Shown in pieces: positions 21,926 to 28,065 of a stretch of DNA of 64,000 nt. Origin of the DNA: Pseudomonadota bacterium (lineage in GTDB: Bacteria; Pseudomonadota; Alphaproteobacteria; SHVZ01); the NCBI GenBank assembly GCA_016195085.1, contig JACQAG010000008.1:1-64000 (forward strand). Reading direction: 5' to 3'. The position numbers and the translations under genes are program-made. Position 1 is the first letter of the stretch. Every line of letters starts with the position of its first letter. Below the pieces are notes generated by a model. The model saw nothing but the letters and a program-made list of their open reading frames with translations, was not told the origin of the DNA and searched no databases.

Positions 21926-22483
21926 TCAGCGCTGATCCATACCCACACGCCATTGACTGATGAATTCAAGACAATCGTGGGTAACTGTTTGAAGATCACC
22001 ACGCGCATCGATGATCGCATCCGCTACCGCCGGAAGGGAACCTTGCAGCTCCGCCTCGACGCGATGTGCATCAGCCCTTACGAAATCACTGCTGCCACCT
22101 GCGCGAGCTTCTACTCGCTTCAACCTCTGGGTATCGTCGGCCGCCAAAAAGATAAGCTTCACTATTGAAGGTGCGGCCATCGCAACAAGGATGTTTTGGA
22201 CACTGACATGCCGGATGCCATCGACAAGAAGGTATTCTCCTGGTCTGAAGTGACCGCTATCAAGAACAGCGCGGCAGAATGGTTCGCTGCCTGTGGCGAC
22301 TAGCGCCTGACCAAGATCCTGTAACGCCTCACGGGATTCTGGGTTCTGACCACGCCTCACGAGTTCAGCACGAAGATAGTCGCCGAAGCTTACGCGAGGC
22401 CACTCGAGCATCTCAGCCAAGGTCTGGCTAACAGACGATTTGCCGCTACCAATGCGCCCTGCGAAAGAGACCACTAGCCCCAT
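21926..22483 (-). CDS. P-loop nucleoside/nucleotide kinase-like protein
   Basis: A 185-residue P-loop protein from ATG 22483, which overlaps the stop of the ASCH-like gene as TAATG, so translation is probably coupled. Walker A is GRIGSGKSS (residues about 9-17). The segment FGDYLRAELVRRG after it resembles the nucleotide-binding region of adenylate/cytidylate or dephospho-CoA kinase-type enzymes; VDGIRHVSV could include the Walker B-like aspartate, and RLKRVEAR a lid arginine region. Exact substrate unknown. Last gene of the seven-gene island operon. Confidence 0.75.
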   Translation of the reverse strand: MGLVVSFAGRIGSGKSSVSQTLAEMLEWPRVSFGDYLRAELVRRGQNPESREALQDLGQALVATGSEPFCRAVLDSGHFRPGEYLLVDGIRHVSVQNILVAMAAPSIVKLIFLAADDTQRLKRVEARAGGSSDFVRADAHRVEAELQGSLPAVADAIIDARGDLQTVTHDCLEFISQWRVGMDQR

Positions 22484-22983
22484 TAGAACCGAAATGCTGA
22501 TTGACGAGAACGTAACGACACCCATCCGCGTCGATCTCTTTTGCGCCATTCAAGTGGATCTATCGTGGCGGTCTCCGCAAGTTCTATTAGCGTCACATAT
22601 GTAGCATCGCGTTGAGTTTCCCAGAACGCATCATCAGCGCATATCATATCGCCATATCGTTTTCTGATTTGCTCGAACTGCCCGTCCGAGAGGTCATGAA
22701 ACCACGCGCGTTTTGCGAGCGTAAGGCCCCGCACAGGGCCAGAAATTTCCTTAACGAGAATGACATCACCTTCCGCCACCTCACCGAATGGTGCGCAGCG
22801 CCTTCGACTGAATCGTGACTCCACAGTCTTTCGGCCGCTCAAAACCAGGGATAGGAACGGCTCTGCAAACACTGCGAGATGTATGCCAACTGGGCTCCCG
22901 GGTAGGGATATCGTATGCAAGTAGCTTAACCAGAAGCTATGCTTGACGACCCGACCCAAGAGTTCGTTGATTCCGGCTGCCAC
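22483..22983 (-). CDS. ASCH/PUA-like domain protein
   Basis: A protein of up to 166 residues. The core from about residue 33 reads GIHLAVFAEPFLSLVLSGRK, then TVESRFSRRR, GDVILVKEISGPVRG and a C-terminal ATYVTLIEL strand, matching the ASCH fold (GxKxxExR motif) that binds RNA or modified nucleotides. The only ATG (22983) lies 58 bases inside the upstream methyltransferase-like gene; a TTG nearer the domain is possible. The C-terminus ends at the kinase start. Confidence 0.7.
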   Translation of the reverse strand: MAAGINELLGRVVKHSFWLSYLHTISLPGSPVGIHLAVFAEPFLSLVLSGRKTVESRFSRRRCAPFGEVAEGDVILVKEISGPVRGLTLAKRAWFHDLSDGQFEQIRKRYGDMICADDAFWETQRDATYVTLIELAETATIDPLEWRKRDRRGWVSLRSRQSAFRF

Positions 22984-24263
22984 TTTTCGCTCCGTCCAGC
23001 GCTGTTTCCAAATCGACTGGATCGCTCCTCTGACGACTCCAGACGGGCGAGAGAGCGCAAATAATCCTTCAGCCGCCTCACCTCATCACGCTCCTCAATC
23101 GTGGCCCAAAGGAGCGGGAGAGTGCCAGAGTCTTCTTCGTTGCTAGAGAGAGCTAAAGCCACTGTGATGACCAATTCCGGATTGTTAGTGGCGAAGATCC
23201 GATTTCCCGAAGTCCACAGCTGGGCTCGCTTCCGGCGGGGATCTTTGCGACTGACCGTAGGCAAAATATCGCCATCGACAAGCGAAATAATAGGGCATCC
23301 GCTCTGCAAAGGGACACTGCGACGACGTACGTATAGACGCATCCGACCAATCATCACTTCGTACCAGTAGTTCCTTTGGTCGCTGGCTGTTGGTACAGCG
23401 CGGCTCAGTGTTTCGGCCTTTCGGAAGACCACAAGATCACCACGACGCCACGAGTGTGGGGCTTGTAAGCCTGCAGCTGCGAGGGCATTCGCCTCAAAAA
23501 ACGGCGTTTCATAGGTGAGAGCAAAAGTGCGTGTATCGAGATGCACGAGGCCGATGTGCGCCGCAAATGTCATTACCTTGGCCCGGTCATCTGCTGCTTT
23601 TGATCGCGCTCCTTCGGGAGGCAAGCTGATAAGGACATACCCTCCTATGCGACATGCGGCCACTGCAGAAGCCAACATCGGCCGGACGTAGTCGAGGTAC
23701 CATGGAGGATCAAGGATGATGACCGAGGCGGTATTGCAGTAGGACATCGCGGGATTGCAAAACTCAATCGTTAGAGGAGCGCCGCTGGCCTGGTTGAGTG
23801 CCGTTAGACGATGCGTCACCGTGTTGGGTTCGCCAAGGAATATCACGGGCCTTTGGAGGGGCCGAGATAGTGCTTCGATTGCTACGCCGGGTGTACCGAA
23901 CAGCAATATAGGTTGCCCCACCTCGCAAATGTCGTCGGCCAGGTCGAGTAACAAGCGCGCGGCATCCGGCGTGAACCGCCATTCATAGTTTATAGGATGC
24001 GGTAGCGGCAGCAACGAACGAGGGCGCGGCGTGAGTATTGGTTGGATGTGGGCCTCGCGCTCGATTGCGCGGGCTGTGTGAGCTGCGATTTGACCCCGCG
24101 CGGCAAGGCGCCTAACTGCGTCGAGCGCGATCGTGGGATACACTGACGGCAGGCGTTCCAAGAGATGGGCGTAGCTGGTGTAGCCTGCGCTCAACTGTGC
24201 AGCGACCCAAGTCTCAACCATTCTCTCGAAGACCAGAGATCCCTGATTCATCGCTCTGGCCAT
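22926..24263 (-). CDS. DPPW-motif methyltransferase-like protein
   Basis: A 445-residue protein that I do not recognise as a named family. Residues about 115-215 look like a Rossmann methyltransferase core: PILLFGTPGVAIEAL, PVIFLGEPN, then VIILDPPWYLDYV, where DPPW(Y) (185-189) is the catalytic signature of amino-group (N6-adenine-type) SAM methyltransferases, and CRIGGYVLISLPPEG. The N-terminal 110 residues are helical, and about 230 C-terminal residues are unassigned. The order of motifs suggests a circularly permuted or divergent group. It starts 5 bases after the radical SAM gene. Confidence 0.65.
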   Translation of the reverse strand: MARAMNQGSLVFERMVETWVAAQLSAGYTSYAHLLERLPSVYPTIALDAVRRLAARGQIAAHTARAIEREAHIQPILTPRPRSLLPLPHPINYEWRFTPDAARLLLDLADDICEVGQPILLFGTPGVAIEALSRPLQRPVIFLGEPNTVTHRLTALNQASGAPLTIEFCNPAMSYCNTASVIILDPPWYLDYVRPMLASAVAACRIGGYVLISLPPEGARSKAADDRAKVMTFAAHIGLVHLDTRTFALTYETPFFEANALAAAGLQAPHSWRRGDLVVFRKAETLSRAVPTASDQRNYWYEVMIGRMRLYVRRRSVPLQSGCPIISLVDGDILPTVSRKDPRRKRAQLWTSGNRIFATNNPELVITVALALSSNEEDSGTLPLLWATIEERDEVRRLKDYLRSLARLESSEERSSRFGNSAGRSEKWQPESTNSWVGSSSIASG

Positions 24264-24268
24264 TAGTG

Positions 24269-25291
24269 CTACTGAACTCCGGTGATAGGCACGTTGGCGA
24301 CGTCTAACGCGCGGGCGGTGGGTTCAAAGCGACGATCAAGTTCGGATTCCCAGGCAGCAATCGCTTCCTCTTGAACGGCAAGACTTCGCTCTCGGTCAGC
24401 TGTGAGGCGGCTGTTAACTGGCGAGAAGACCCTGATCTGCAATGGCGTGACGCGAAGCGGAAGGTTCGGGTTTAGGTTTTGAAGTCGATCGACGAAATTA
24501 GCGACGCTCGCCGCCACTCCTTCAGAGTAGGGTGATGTCAGCGTGACATAGCCATAGAGGTCGATGTCTAACGTCAACAGCCGACGCATAATCACAAACT
24601 GATTATCAAAGTCCTCCTCTGCGGCTCGTGTGTTGAACGCGAATGAACGCGCGTCATAGCCCTTAAAACAACAAACTCGGCCATAATTTTTGTATTCTTG
24701 CATGATATCGAGCTGTGTTTGGTCGAGTTTGTCGAACAAATATGTTGTGCTGAGGTTGTCGTCAGTCCACAGGTAGGTAGTCTGGTCGAGCCCAACATTC
24801 TTCAGCGCACTCATCATCCATGGCGTCCACTCAGGGATGAGATCGGGTGATCCACCAGACAAGTCAATGATTCGCGGTCGATCAGGTTCAGCCTGGTACA
24901 TGCTGACGAGCTCTTCCGGTGTCAGCCAAGCCGAAAGAGACTGATTCGCACTGAGAAGGTTGTAGGGCACGAAGCAATACCAGCAACGCCATGCACAGGC
25001 CGCATTCTGAAATACCTGGGCGCGCATCATTTGTGGGGGCGGATTTATACCCAGGGCCTTGCTCGCAGGAACTATCGGCAATGGATTGATTGGCCAACCC
25101 GAAGATGTCGTTTGCTTGAAATGGCGAACGCGACCGTAACCTCTGCAGTTAGTCGGGGCGCTCAGATCTACTTCTTGCTCGGAGCCTGCCAATCGGGAGA
25201 CCAGAAGGCGCCGTCCCGCTACGTCAATGGCACGCGCGCGTAAAGTCTCGGAAAGCTTCGCCGTATCGATTGGCTTAGTGAGGGCGCTCAT
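24269..25291 (-). CDS. Radical SAM enzyme, unassigned subfamily
   Basis: A 340-residue protein with a canonical CX3CX2C cluster motif: cysteines at residues 99, 103 and 106 in CAWRCWYCF, for a 4Fe-4S cluster that cleaves SAM. GGSPD (146-150) corresponds to the glycine motif that contacts SAM. A further region with YLWTDDNLST and CCFKGYDARSF continues the TIM-barrel. About 95 residues precede the cluster motif, with NCRGYGRVRHFKQ. No SPASM-type extra cluster is obvious. Its start overlaps the stop of the zinc-ribbon gene (ATGA). Confidence 0.8.
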   Translation of the reverse strand: MSALTKPIDTAKLSETLRARAIDVAGRRLLVSRLAGSEQEVDLSAPTNCRGYGRVRHFKQTTSSGWPINPLPIVPASKALGINPPPQMMRAQVFQNAACAWRCWYCFVPYNLLSANQSLSAWLTPEELVSMYQAEPDRPRIIDLSGGSPDLIPEWTPWMMSALKNVGLDQTTYLWTDDNLSTTYLFDKLDQTQLDIMQEYKNYGRVCCFKGYDARSFAFNTRAAEEDFDNQFVIMRRLLTLDIDLYGYVTLTSPYSEGVAASVANFVDRLQNLNPNLPLRVTPLQIRVFSPVNSRLTADRERSLAVQEEAIAAWESELDRRFEPTARALDVANVPITGVQ

Positions 25292-25896
25292 CGGGGTATC
25301 GCGCCTGCATCGGGCAGTTGTGCATGTTGACGTCGTGGAACCTTGATTGGATCATCCAAGAGATCGGGGACTCGCTCATCGAGGAAGAGATCAATCAGCT
25401 TGGCGCAGTACTCAAATTCCTCCCGCGTTAGCGATCGCCCTTTAGGGATTGAGTGCCAGTATTCTAAGCAGGTACGACAGCAGCAGGCGGTGGCGTGTTG
25501 GGCGTAATAAATAGCATTGCCATGCAGCGGCGTTTGGCGTCCGTCTCGTGGCGGGTTGGCCGACGCGAGATATTTCGCTAGGCGGTCACGTGCTGCAACC
25601 TTCAGTTTGATCCGCCCCTTGCGTTGTGCATGACGAATTGCCGTTTCGTCGATCTCTTTGTGGAAGAAGTGATGGCGGATTAGCTCGTGTTGAAGCGCTC
25701 GGAAGGTGTGCTGTGCATCCCTAAGATCACGCAAATGTACGCGCTGCCAATTAATAAGATCTGCCCCACAAGCTCTACATCTGCCCCGCTCCTCGGATGT
25801 CATCCTTTTGAGCTGCTTGAAACAATGTAAGCCGTTGTCACAATCGGTTGATGTGCACTTGATCTCAAGCGGGGGAGGTTTTTGAAAGCCAGTCAT
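25288..25896 (-). CDS. Cys-rich zinc-ribbon protein with DUF4186-like C-terminus
   Basis: A 202-residue protein. Cys14, Cys19, Cys25, Cys40 and Cys43 could make an N-terminal zinc ribbon. Residues 121-155 (QTPLHGNAIYYAQHATACCC then RTCLEYWHSIPKGR) match what I recall of DUF4186, a small family with an unknown role. The end (VPRRQHAQLPDAG) overlaps the radical SAM start by 4 bases. The tight link suggests the two proteins act together, for example as substrate adaptor and enzyme. Confidence 0.65.
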   Translation of the reverse strand: MTGFQKPPPLEIKCTSTDCDNGLHCFKQLKRMTSEERGRCRACGADLINWQRVHLRDLRDAQHTFRALQHELIRHHFFHKEIDETAIRHAQRKGRIKLKVAARDRLAKYLASANPPRDGRQTPLHGNAIYYAQHATACCCRTCLEYWHSIPKGRSLTREEFEYCAKLIDLFLDERVPDLLDDPIKVPRRQHAQLPDAGAIPR

Positions 25897-25903
25897 GGCA
25901 CCC

Positions 25904-27352
25904 TCAGTGCAAGGAGCGTTCGAGAAGTTGACGATCTAAGTCGCTATCGATCGCGAAGGGAAAGCGTTCAAAAAAGACATCACGGGCGATGGTCCATGGA
26001 TCTGTATCGCCAGTCTGGAGATTAGCGGCAGCACCCCACCAATTGATGTTCTGCCAGGAAAGGCGGAACGCCAGATAATTGGCGAGTGCTCCGATGTCGA
26101 CGCCCTCGCGTTTGGCGACAGTAGGGACAACACGCTTAAGACGCTCCACGGAGTTCCGTGCCGCGGCTACGCAAGCCTGCGCCAATTCTTCCGCTCGACC
26201 ATCCAACACCACGTCACCAGCGAATTGGCTGGCTGCAACCTCTTCATCAGATTTGCGACGCTCGGGCGAAGTTTCGTCGGCTTCGATAACTTCCATCGTC
26301 TCCGCCTCAGGCCGCTGCGCAGCGTGGAATAGCTCGTGGAGTAGATCGAATAGCCAGCGCGCTTCATGCTTGGAGGATTGCTTCAAGACGACAACATTGC
26401 GTCCCTGATAGCGCCAGCAGGCGCCATGGAACGTCCCCCGGTTCTTAAGCGGCAGCACTGGCACCCCGATATCCCAGGCGTAGCGTAAGGTTGAGCTGAG
26501 TGTCAGGACAGCATAGCGCTCGACAATTGCGTACCGCATTGTGCGGGCTGCAGTCGGAATAAGCGTCTTCGGCAGATTGCTCGAACCCTTGAGAACTACG
26601 ACAGAAAGATAATTCGCGTACGCCGCATAAAGGGTTGTATCGGCCAGGTTACGACCGGCCGGAATCTTGAACCGCGCCTCTGCGGCTGCGAATCGGGGCG
26701 CGGCCAACGGCTGTGCACCGAAGAGGTTATCAGGAGTCCATCCGAACACGCGCCCAAGTGCCGCCGTCGCTTTCGCCGACAATGCTCCATCGTCCTCAGT
26801 GGGCACCTCTCCCGCAGCTCGAGCCGCATCGATGGACGACAATAGGTGCGTGACCAGAAAATCACGATCAAGGCCGACCTGCCGGAGTTTGCTTACGAGA
26901 CCATTGAAACTGTCGGGAGCAACCGGAAGAAGAATGTCATTTCTAATGCGTACACCGATAGCATCCGCGACTTTGCGCAGTCTCTCAAAGCTCGTCGAGG
27001 CGTAGCGCTCGGCCTCATATCGCTGAATCTGCTGTTCCTTCATCCCGAGACGGTCAGCCAAGGCTTTTTGGCTGAGACCGGCGACAATTCGAGCCTTGAT
27101 TAGGCCCTCCGCCAGTTCATCAAACGAGTTAATGGAAATGACGGCCATATCCGCTGCCTTTAACCGTTCATACTCCGACAGTTCGGCACGCAGATCTTCG
27201 AGTTGACTCTCAAGAGCTTCTCGTTCTGCTTGAATCAGACGCGGATGGACGCCTTCCCTCGCGCCACCTTCCGCAGCGAGGTCGGCGAGGGCGCGACGAA
27301 AGTTGTCGGCTTCAGCTCTGGTGATCTTGTACTGACGTTCGTTGGTGATCAT
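25904..27352 (-). CDS. XRE helix-turn-helix / ImmA-IrrE-type metalloprotease
   Basis: A 482-residue protein. Residues about 10-68 form a charged coiled coil; about 83-135 an XRE helix-turn-helix (AGLSQKALADRLGMKEQQIQ then RYEAERY); a zinc-protease motif, HELFH, lies at residues 339-343 in LFDLLHELFHAAQRPE, as in ImmA/IrrE proteins that cleave repressors or antitoxins. The end has an EEVAASQFAGD segment typical of such HTH-ImmA fusions. It overlaps the DUF6932-like start/stop by 4 bases and probably regulates the island operon. Confidence 0.85.
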   Translation of the reverse strand: MITNERQYKITRAEADNFRRALADLAAEGGAREGVHPRLIQAEREALESQLEDLRAELSEYERLKAADMAVISINSFDELAEGLIKARIVAGLSQKALADRLGMKEQQIQRYEAERYASTSFERLRKVADAIGVRIRNDILLPVAPDSFNGLVSKLRQVGLDRDFLVTHLLSSIDAARAAGEVPTEDDGALSAKATAALGRVFGWTPDNLFGAQPLAAPRFAAAEARFKIPAGRNLADTTLYAAYANYLSVVVLKGSSNLPKTLIPTAARTMRYAIVERYAVLTLSSTLRYAWDIGVPVLPLKNRGTFHGACWRYQGRNVVVLKQSSKHEARWLFDLLHELFHAAQRPEAETMEVIEADETSPERRKSDEEVAASQFAGDVVLDGRAEELAQACVAAARNSVERLKRVVPTVAKREGVDIGALANYLAFRLSWQNINWWGAAANLQTGDTDPWTIARDVFFERFPFAIDSDLDRQLLERSLH

Positions 27353-27786
27353 GGGAGACTCTTAAGATTGATCTGTAGGATTCCTTTGGGTACGCCATCG
27401 CGGTCTTTAAGAAAGAACTCACGGTAGCGAATTCCGGCCGCGGCCAGGGCAGTGGCGGGAAAGAGTTCACCGCCAAACTTGGCTTTCATGGCGGCACGCT
27501 TGTTGGAGAAGTCGAGTAGGACCGGATCAAGAAGGCTCGGATCCACTCCTCGGGGGTCCCATGCCCCGTCATAGTCGTCCGGCAGGTCTTTTACAGAGAT
27601 GAAGCTGCCGTTAAGAAGGACAGACTCGCATCCTGCTCCCGCGAGGCTTTTCGCCGCTCCGAGCAGTCCGCCAACGAGACCCGTTCGGTGCGAATTTCCC
27701 GAGAAGCGAGCCACCATTTCGGTCCACGAGCTGTCATGGACGCCGGGCGGCAAATAGCCAGTCGCTGCATCAAATGCGGGGATCAT
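27349..27786 (-). CDS. DUF6932-like protein (nucleotidyltransferase-related)
   Basis: A 145-residue protein from ATG 27786 (MIPAFDAATGYLPPGVH). Landmarks GYLPPGVHDSSWTEMVARF, GCESVLLNGSFIS, DYDGAWDP and KFGGELFPAT match what I recall of DUF6932, which has a nucleotidyltransferase-like GSFxxxKxxPxDxD pattern. This family is often next to XRE proteins, as here. It is the first gene of the island operon, and its start codon sits inside a large palindrome (27782-27815). Confidence 0.65.
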   Translation of the reverse strand: MIPAFDAATGYLPPGVHDSSWTEMVARFSGNSHRTGLVGGLLGAAKSLAGAGCESVLLNGSFISVKDLPDDYDGAWDPRGVDPSLLDPVLLDFSNKRAAMKAKFGGELFPATALAAAGIRYREFFLKDRDGVPKGILQINLKSLP

Positions 27787-27815
27787 CAACACAACAATAT
27801 CGTTGTGTTGATGAT
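27782..27815. promoter_or_regulatory. Perfect 14-bp inverted repeat over the island operon start (operator candidate)
   Basis: Arms at 27782-27795 and 27802-27815 are exact inverted complements around a 6-base AATATC centre. The ATG of the DUF6932-like gene (27784-27786) lies within the left arm. Such a site fits autoregulation by the XRE/ImmA protein encoded next in the operon, or an mRNA hairpin at the ribosome site. About 250 further bases to 28065 hold an AT-rich patch (27890-27940) but no gene I can support. Confidence 0.7.
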
Positions 27816-28065
27816 GATGTCAAGGTTCATAGACGTACGCGGCTCGGCACGGGCTTAAACAGCGCGACACCAACCCGCGGCGGATTGGATATGTCTGCTC
27901 AATCAATAAATTAACTAGAGATGAACATAGCTTGCGCCACTCTTACGCAACAAGCCAGGGGCACGATTACGCGCTTCCGGGCCCATCTCTTGCGCGGCTG
28001 GAAGGGTGATTCTCACCCCTACCGGGCGTCACATTGAAGGAGAGAGTCGGGGTTGGGGCGCCTTC

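Follow-up and report, generated by a model that had tools for sequence, protein, structure and literature searches.

A mobile seven-gene cassette with a radical SAM protein, a Zn-ribbon-DUF4186 protein and a conserved palindromic operator, and its possible role in defence

Gene content of the locus

We analyzed a 64,000-nucleotide stretch of an alphaproteobacterial genome (GenBank assembly GCA_016195085.1, contig JACQAG010000008.1, positions 1 to 64,000), referred to below as the window. Its minus strand contains a seven-gene operon at positions 21926-27786, with the transcription order G1 (DUF6932), G2 (XRE and M78), G3 (Zn-ribbon and DUF4186), G4 (radical SAM), G5 (DPPW transferase), G6 (ASCH) and G7 (P-loop nucleotide-kinase-like) (Table 1). 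The GC content of this island is 55.6%, compared with 66-67% in its surroundings. The original prediction described a pair formed by the radical SAM gene and the DUF4186 gene; both open reading frames are real and have a 4-base ATGA (25288-25291) in common, but the actual unit comprises seven genes. Most relatives also show a short overlap of G3 and G4, the value being -4 in 11 of the 20 loci and -1 in two others, and G1 and G2 overlap by -4 in 19 of 20 loci.

Table 1. Genes and promoter features of the cassette (positions in the window)
Feature	Position	Strand	Supporting matches and remarks
G1, DUF6932, nucleotidyltransferase-like (GSF...P.D.D)	27349..27786	-	PF22014 E=1e-28
G2, XRE helix-turn-helix fused to M78 (IrrE/ImmA) peptidase, HExxH	25904..27352	-	HTH_3 E=2e-10, Peptidase_M78 E=3e-5
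G3, N-terminal Zn-ribbon-like domain fused to DUF4186, 202 aa	25288..25896	-	PF13811 E=4e-33
G4, radical SAM protein, 340 aa	24269..25291	-	motifs C99-X3-C103-X2-C106; WTDDNLS; GGSPDL; KGxD
G5, class I SAM-fold transferase, invariant DPPW, N-terminal helical domain	22926..24263	-	AF2 pLDDT 82
G6, ASCH-domain protein	22483..22983	-	weak PF04266 match E=0.03 (sister copy E=0.0016)
G7, P-loop nucleoside-monophosphate-kinase-like protein	21926..22549	-	AAA_17/AAA_18 E=8e-8
Palindromic operator CACAAC-N6-GTTGTG	27790..27807	.	overlaps -10 TATTGT (27794-27799)
-35 element TTGACA	27818..27823	-	18 bp from -10; TTGAC[AG] conserved in proteobacterial copies

Distribution, co-inheritance and mobility of the cassette

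Relatives of G4 were collected by a scan of the genome collection (16 relatives) and a search of 72,556 plasmids (7 records), and 20 loci (15 from genomes and 5 from plasmids) were examined for gene order. The order G1-G7 is identical in these 20 other loci, within about 5 to 6 kb, with the ASCH gene missing in three of them. The loci belong to Alphaproteobacteria, Burkholderiales and Nostocales. The sixteenth genome locus (L015) possesses a G4 relative alone, in another operon described below. Pairwise gene distances across the cassette co-vary (r 0.87-0.97, with 0 of 999 permutations reaching any of these values), so the cassette genes travel together; for G3 and G4 the correlation is 0.92. 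In the flanks, only a patatin gene recurs in three or more loci.

The same seven plasmid records hold full-length G3, the radical SAM gene, full-length G2 and a close G5, and six of the seven carriers are typed as conjugative. Among 385 genomes of the same class, the cassette is present in one, the window's own; the low-score matches in class- and phylum-wide genome searches are mostly partial and to other radical SAM proteins. G4 of the window is 52% identical to its counterpart in Nostoc, 49% in Paraburkholderia and 48% in Methylobacterium, the cyanobacterial copies being as close to the window as many proteobacterial ones. In Tolypothrix PCC 7712, an 18.4 kb insertion with the cassette separates two closely related strains (PMC9679502). 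The seven-gene unit is mobile. In an empty-site comparison within the window's own family, the best matches of the two cassette flanks lie on different contigs. At another locus (L009:3127-5339), the cassette is directly preceded by two ORFs recognized by eye, one for a tyrosine-integrase-like protein and one for a DusA-like tRNA-dihydrouridine synthase, which suggests dusA as the insertion site.

A phage origin of the radical SAM gene was rejected, as it has no match in 50,697 phage records. A search of IMG/VR with two query sequences produced no confirmed match, and a BFVD search returned distant folds only.

The radical SAM protein G4

The cysteines C99, C103 and C106, originally proposed as a CX3CX2C motif, are correctly placed and invariant in 17 aligned copies. 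The YLWTDDNLST region singled out with them is also real, and its residues D177-D178-N179-L180-S181 are invariant in the same alignment. The impression that G4 matches no familiar subfamily was borne out by profile searches of Pfam, NCBIfam and PDB, all of which remained below threshold: G4 reaches 24.2 bits with Radical_SAM PF04055 (cut-off 29.5; the L015 relative scores 47.1 bits, above the cut-off), its best NCBIfam score is 14.4 bits with the viperin model NF038283 (cut-off 180), and its best PDB profile match has E=0.06.

The AF2 model of G4 (pLDDT 90, pTM 0.90) places the CX3CX2C motif in a TIM-like barrel with fold Z scores up to 16.5, as in the radical SAM superfamily. Among solved folds, that of the PFL-activating enzyme is the closest, with Z 16.5 and an rmsd of 3.3 across 230 residues; QueE follows (Z 13.3), and viperin has a Z of about 11. 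The G4 profile was aligned by hhalign to a PflA with E=2e-9 over 143 columns, whereas only 26-71 columns were aligned to two real viperins; on the viperin model, by comparison, 52 bits are reached by two further radical SAM genes from this genome. Based on the order of the fold scores, the hhalign coverage and the viperin-model score, G4 is a new subfamily in a PflA-like branch, distinct from viperin. It is alignable with PflA and QueE around the CX3CX2C and GG motifs, and differs from them by an extra N-terminal region and by WTDDNLS in place of the DTNG/DTSG-type strand; the cassette also has no glycyl-radical enzyme and no 7-deazaguanine genes.

Two assignments of G4 to known families were rejected: viperin because the score is far under the cut-off and the alignments are partial, and PFL-activase because, despite the close fold, the operon has no glycyl-radical partner. 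Neither a glycyl-radical enzyme gene nor an RV[SAC]G[YFW] motif was found in the seven cassette proteins, TIGR02493 (PFL-activase) gave no match to G4 at E<=1 in the NCBIfam scan, and the G4 gene was not among the TIGR02493 matches in its own genome. A match in Nonomuraea was discarded as a real PflA adjoining a formate-acetyltransferase-like gene.

The Zn-ribbon-DUF4186 protein G3

G3, first described as DUF4186-like, is a genuine member of that family (114.1 bits with PF13811 against a cut-off of 25, covering positions 2-108 of 109). Its five N-terminal cysteines (C14, C19, C25, C40 and C43) are invariant in all 21 sequences, as are C139, C140, C143 and H134. The reported CCC run is particular to the window copy; the conserved motif is [TC]CCRxC. 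Judging from the invariant cysteines, G3 likely binds metal.

The original prediction also suggested that G3 is a dedicated partner of the radical SAM enzyme. The dedication holds for the fused form: at a coverage of at least 80%, the Zn-ribbon and DUF4186 combination occurs in 7 of 72,556 plasmids, the same seven that have the radical SAM gene. It does not hold for exclusivity, as G3 is one of six partners. DUF4186 alone is widespread (for example, E. coli yneG), thus the domain is not specific to radical SAM chemistry. E. coli YneG has the domain and its HATxxCC core in common with G3; the difference is the fusion to a five-cysteine Zn-ribbon-like domain, a form that in the plasmid set is found only with the cassette. 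We found no description of DUF4186 or DUF6932 in a defence role in the papers that we searched.

The transferase, ASCH and kinase-like proteins

The closest fold to the G5 model is the branched-chain polyamine synthase BpsA (Z 20.9 over 273 aligned residues), which has the fold including the N-terminal domain in common with G5, followed by N-methyltransferases (Z 16-17); TrmN, Trm14 and METTL5 are among the fold neighbours. Sequence identity to BpsA is 12-14%. G5 combines a Rossmann SAM fold with a [DNS]PP[YFW] motif, its DPPW is invariant in 16 cassette copies, and its fold resembles amino-group transferases with Z 15-21. The predicted fold and motif support an amino group as the acceptor, which could lie on a nucleotide or, alternatively, on a polyamine or on DNA or RNA. 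Sequence divergence is far more rapid in G5 than in G4 (29% versus 52% identity between Nostoc and the window), as might be expected of a part that contacts a changing target.

The G6 proteins are characterized by the motif GxKTxESRFS...APY..GD...K..GP. Among the 20 loci, G6 was not detected in L012, L013 and L014, where about 45-80 bp separate G5 and G7. The kinase-like G7 is present in all 20 cassette loci. It matches a PHROG deoxynucleoside monophosphate kinase (E=1e-6 over residues 23-186) and the adenylate-kinase family in PDB (E~1e-4 over the full domain).

The L015 operon (L015:402-5261) is a single cyanobacterial case at a contig end. It encodes, in order, a guanylate-kinase-methyltransferase fusion, a radical SAM protein 42% identical to G4, a thymidylate-synthase family protein, a 263-aa protein that matched no known family, and a Ham1 NTP-pyrophosphatase. 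Therefore, a radical SAM protein, a SAM transferase and a nucleotide kinase are common to two otherwise different operons, and the L015 operon is possibly a second nucleotide-modifying cassette. From the L015 neighbours, the kinase-like G7 and a kinase-adenylosuccinate-synthetase fusion next to a distant G5 relative (described below), we infer that the substrate of G4 may be a nucleotide.

The operator, the promoter and the proposed regulators G1 and G2

Directly upstream of G1 lies the palindrome CACAACGATATTGTTGTG, which fits the consensus CACAAC-N6-GTTGTG. The window has a single site with this pattern, against none in 100 shuffles, and that site is the only one in the genome of 4.8 Mb, in which a control pattern has 0 occurrences. 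In most relatives the operator is found at -19/-20. Its conservation extends from rhizobia to cyanobacteria, and two cyanobacterial copies have it in doubled form. Compensatory variants include CCCAAC..GTTGGG in L004 and TACAAC..GTTGTA in L014; no operator was recognized in L012 and L013, and that of L018 is imperfect.

Two start codons are available for G1, the ATG at 27786 and an upstream GTG at 27792 that lies inside the operator. Judging from the TTGACA box, the 18-bp spacer and TATTGT, transcription is predicted to start at the ATG or very close to it, and the ATG is thus a likelier G1 start than the listed GTG. The mRNA would then be leaderless, and probably repressed by G2, the probable regulator of the operon and presumed ligand of the operator. 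The HELFH residues H339, E340 and H343 of G2 are invariant, as are G62 S63 F64, D73 and D75 of G1.

In Rhizobium lentis, the operator variant TTACAACATTATTGTTGTAA precedes a different unit, whose first genes are homologous to G1 and to the N-terminal portion of G2. With its matching palindrome, this locus (L028:4526-6263) has the G1/G2 module at the head of another set of genes, so the switch is portable between units.

Defence genes in the neighbourhood of the cassette

At least eight loci adjoin known defence genes in a PADLOC scan of selected flanking ORFs, which is strong evidence but no estimate of frequency, as the ORFs were chosen by eye. The neighbours are IetAS in L002 (3.5e-83), a type IIG RM with an LmuB-like protein in L005, AbiE in L010 and L011, NsnAB in L006 (1.7e-113), a type IIG methylase-like protein in L017, a dGTPase in L019 (2e-75) and an HNH family protein in L001. 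In five loci of a divergent group, a patatin-like phospholipase gene adjoins G7, on the same strand as the cassette in three loci and on the opposite strand in two; all three that were scanned match the PADLOC CBASS phospholipase effectors. The patatins of L011 (11275-13600), L012 (10752-12539) and L014 (10765-12534) have a conserved C-terminal region that matched no known family, and a second copy of the kinase gene comes next in L011 and L016.

The cassette itself fits no defined system in PADLOC-DB 2.0.0. The matches are weak and partial: PDC-M63A for G1, RmrA/CapH-type HTH among the cassette genes, pVip for G4 (E=2.5e-4; 2e-5 for the L015 copy) and VakA-like for G7 (E=4e-4). With CBASS (CapH/CapP and CapV-type patatin), the cassette has in common probable control by an HTH and an M78 peptidase, a nucleotidyltransferase-like protein and, in one subclade, an adjoining patatin effector gene. 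It differs in that the HTH and the peptidase form one protein, the patatin gene is found in only 5 of 20 cassette loci, and G1 belongs to DUF6932 and is not a CD-NTase; no cassette protein matches CD-NTase in Pfam or PADLOC. A paper on predicted defence systems mentions untested nucleotide-modifying domains in general terms (PMC13092281). We consider a role in defence or against mobile elements likely, against which it must be said that most copies have no known effector.

Proposed function and alternatives

The reading that we prefer, to which we assign somewhat less than an even chance, is an inducible, horizontally mobile defence cassette that makes a modified nucleotide; if defence is taken as given, such a product becomes fairly probable. 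G2, as an XRE repressor with an M78 peptidase, would together with G1 hold the single promoter shut at CACAAC-N6-GTTGTG until it is freed by infection or DNA stress. The genes G3-G7, as the effector module, would then produce a modified nucleotide: G7 would handle a (d)NMP-type substrate, G4 would perform radical chemistry on it with the metal protein G3, G5 would alkylate an amino group via its DPPW site, and the ASCH protein G6 would bind the product. The product may poison the replication of the invader, as viperin products do, or serve as a signal; its target in one subclade could be the neighbouring patatin phospholipase. Both the order of these steps and the target are conjectural. More specifically, it can be speculated, though with clear reservations, that the cassette is an undescribed immune system, in which G4, G3, a BpsA-like or methyltransferase-like G5 and the kinase build a hypermodified nucleotide, an antiviral poison or a second messenger (with the patatin as effector in one branch), and which is released by a one-protein HTH-peptidase switch at a leaderless promoter.

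Modification of nucleic acids is a rather unlikely alternative. G5 and G4 would modify DNA or tRNA/rRNA in place, the ASCH protein would read the mark and G7 would be a nucleic-acid or nucleotide kinase; the system would either label self or repair damage by a toxin (a G1-like nucleotidyltransferase), as a toxin-antitoxin or restriction-like unit. This accounts for the DPPW motif and for TrmN, Trm14 and METTL5 as fold neighbours of G5, and it agrees with the placement of G1 in a nucleotidyltransferase-like class that contains toxins. In addition, modified nucleic acids are bound by ASCH/PUA domains, which are found together with AAA_17 ATPases in operons proposed to serve in defence or as toxin-antitoxin systems (PMC7641849). 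However, the cassette has no nuclease and no recognized target-recognition domain, the ASCH gene is missing in three loci, and the L015 operon is of a nucleotide-pool type.

It is improbable that the target is a protein or peptide, with G4 acting in the manner of a peptide maturase or of an activase for a glycyl-radical enzyme, and G3 serving as its substrate or carrier. The PFL-activase fold of G4, its hhalign match to PflA and the tight coupling of G3 agree with such a role. The lack of a glycyl-radical enzyme and of its motif, and the failure of G4 to reach TIGR02493, argue against it, and the kinase and the DPPW transferase would be left unexplained. Furthermore, the cassette genes nearly abut or overlap, so that a precursor peptide could not be encoded between them.

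A module for plasmid or island maintenance or competition (toxin-antitoxin or plasmid incompatibility), acting in place of phage defence, would suit the tightly coupled and portable G1-G2 pair, the R. lentis unit with its matching operator and the many copies on conjugative plasmids. We regard it as quite improbable, as five enzymes of biosynthetic appearance are excessive for addiction and many copies lie in chromosomal defence islands.

Least of all do we expect a divergent viperin system, with G4 as a prokaryotic viperin, G7 as its kinase and a 3'-deoxy-3',4'-didehydro nucleotide as product: the pairing of a radical SAM protein with a kinase and the weak pVip and VakA-like matches point to it, but the viperin-model score (exceeded by other radical SAM genes of the genome), the short hhalign alignments and the lower fold Z all weigh against it. 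Like the cassette, prokaryotic viperins (pVip/SAND) occur in mobile defence settings and pair a radical SAM protein with one that resembles a nucleotide kinase; the cassette differs in that G4 fails the viperin model and is nearer to PFL-activase, and in having five further conserved genes and its own operator.

The cassette joins the orphan families DUF4186 and DUF6932, an unassigned radical SAM group and a DPPW transferase family in one transferable unit with a named operator, which makes each of them testable at once. Should its product be a modified nucleotide, as in our preferred reading, the cassette would be, after viperin, the second case in which radical SAM chemistry yields antiviral nucleotides, or else a source of immune messengers of a new class. 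The conserved operator is a ready handle for finding further units under the same switch.

Relatives of individual cassette proteins

A G5-like DPPW transferase and a metallophosphoesterase form a two-gene unit in four loci (L031:6680-9048, L032:742-3110, L026:7917-10324 and L027:7971-10348). One of the contigs also encodes a P4-type primase, another is prophage-like, and plasmids carry the unit as well; it is a candidate small defence unit. Stand-alone ASCH relatives of G6, 37-42% identical, are found in viral contigs (L053:7767-8291 and L054:8001-8393). Finally, near the distant G5 relative on a Rhizobium leguminosarum plasmid, a P-loop kinase is fused to an adenylosuccinate-synthetase domain (L027:5571-7172), an arrangement reminiscent of 2-aminoadenine (PurZ) chemistry.
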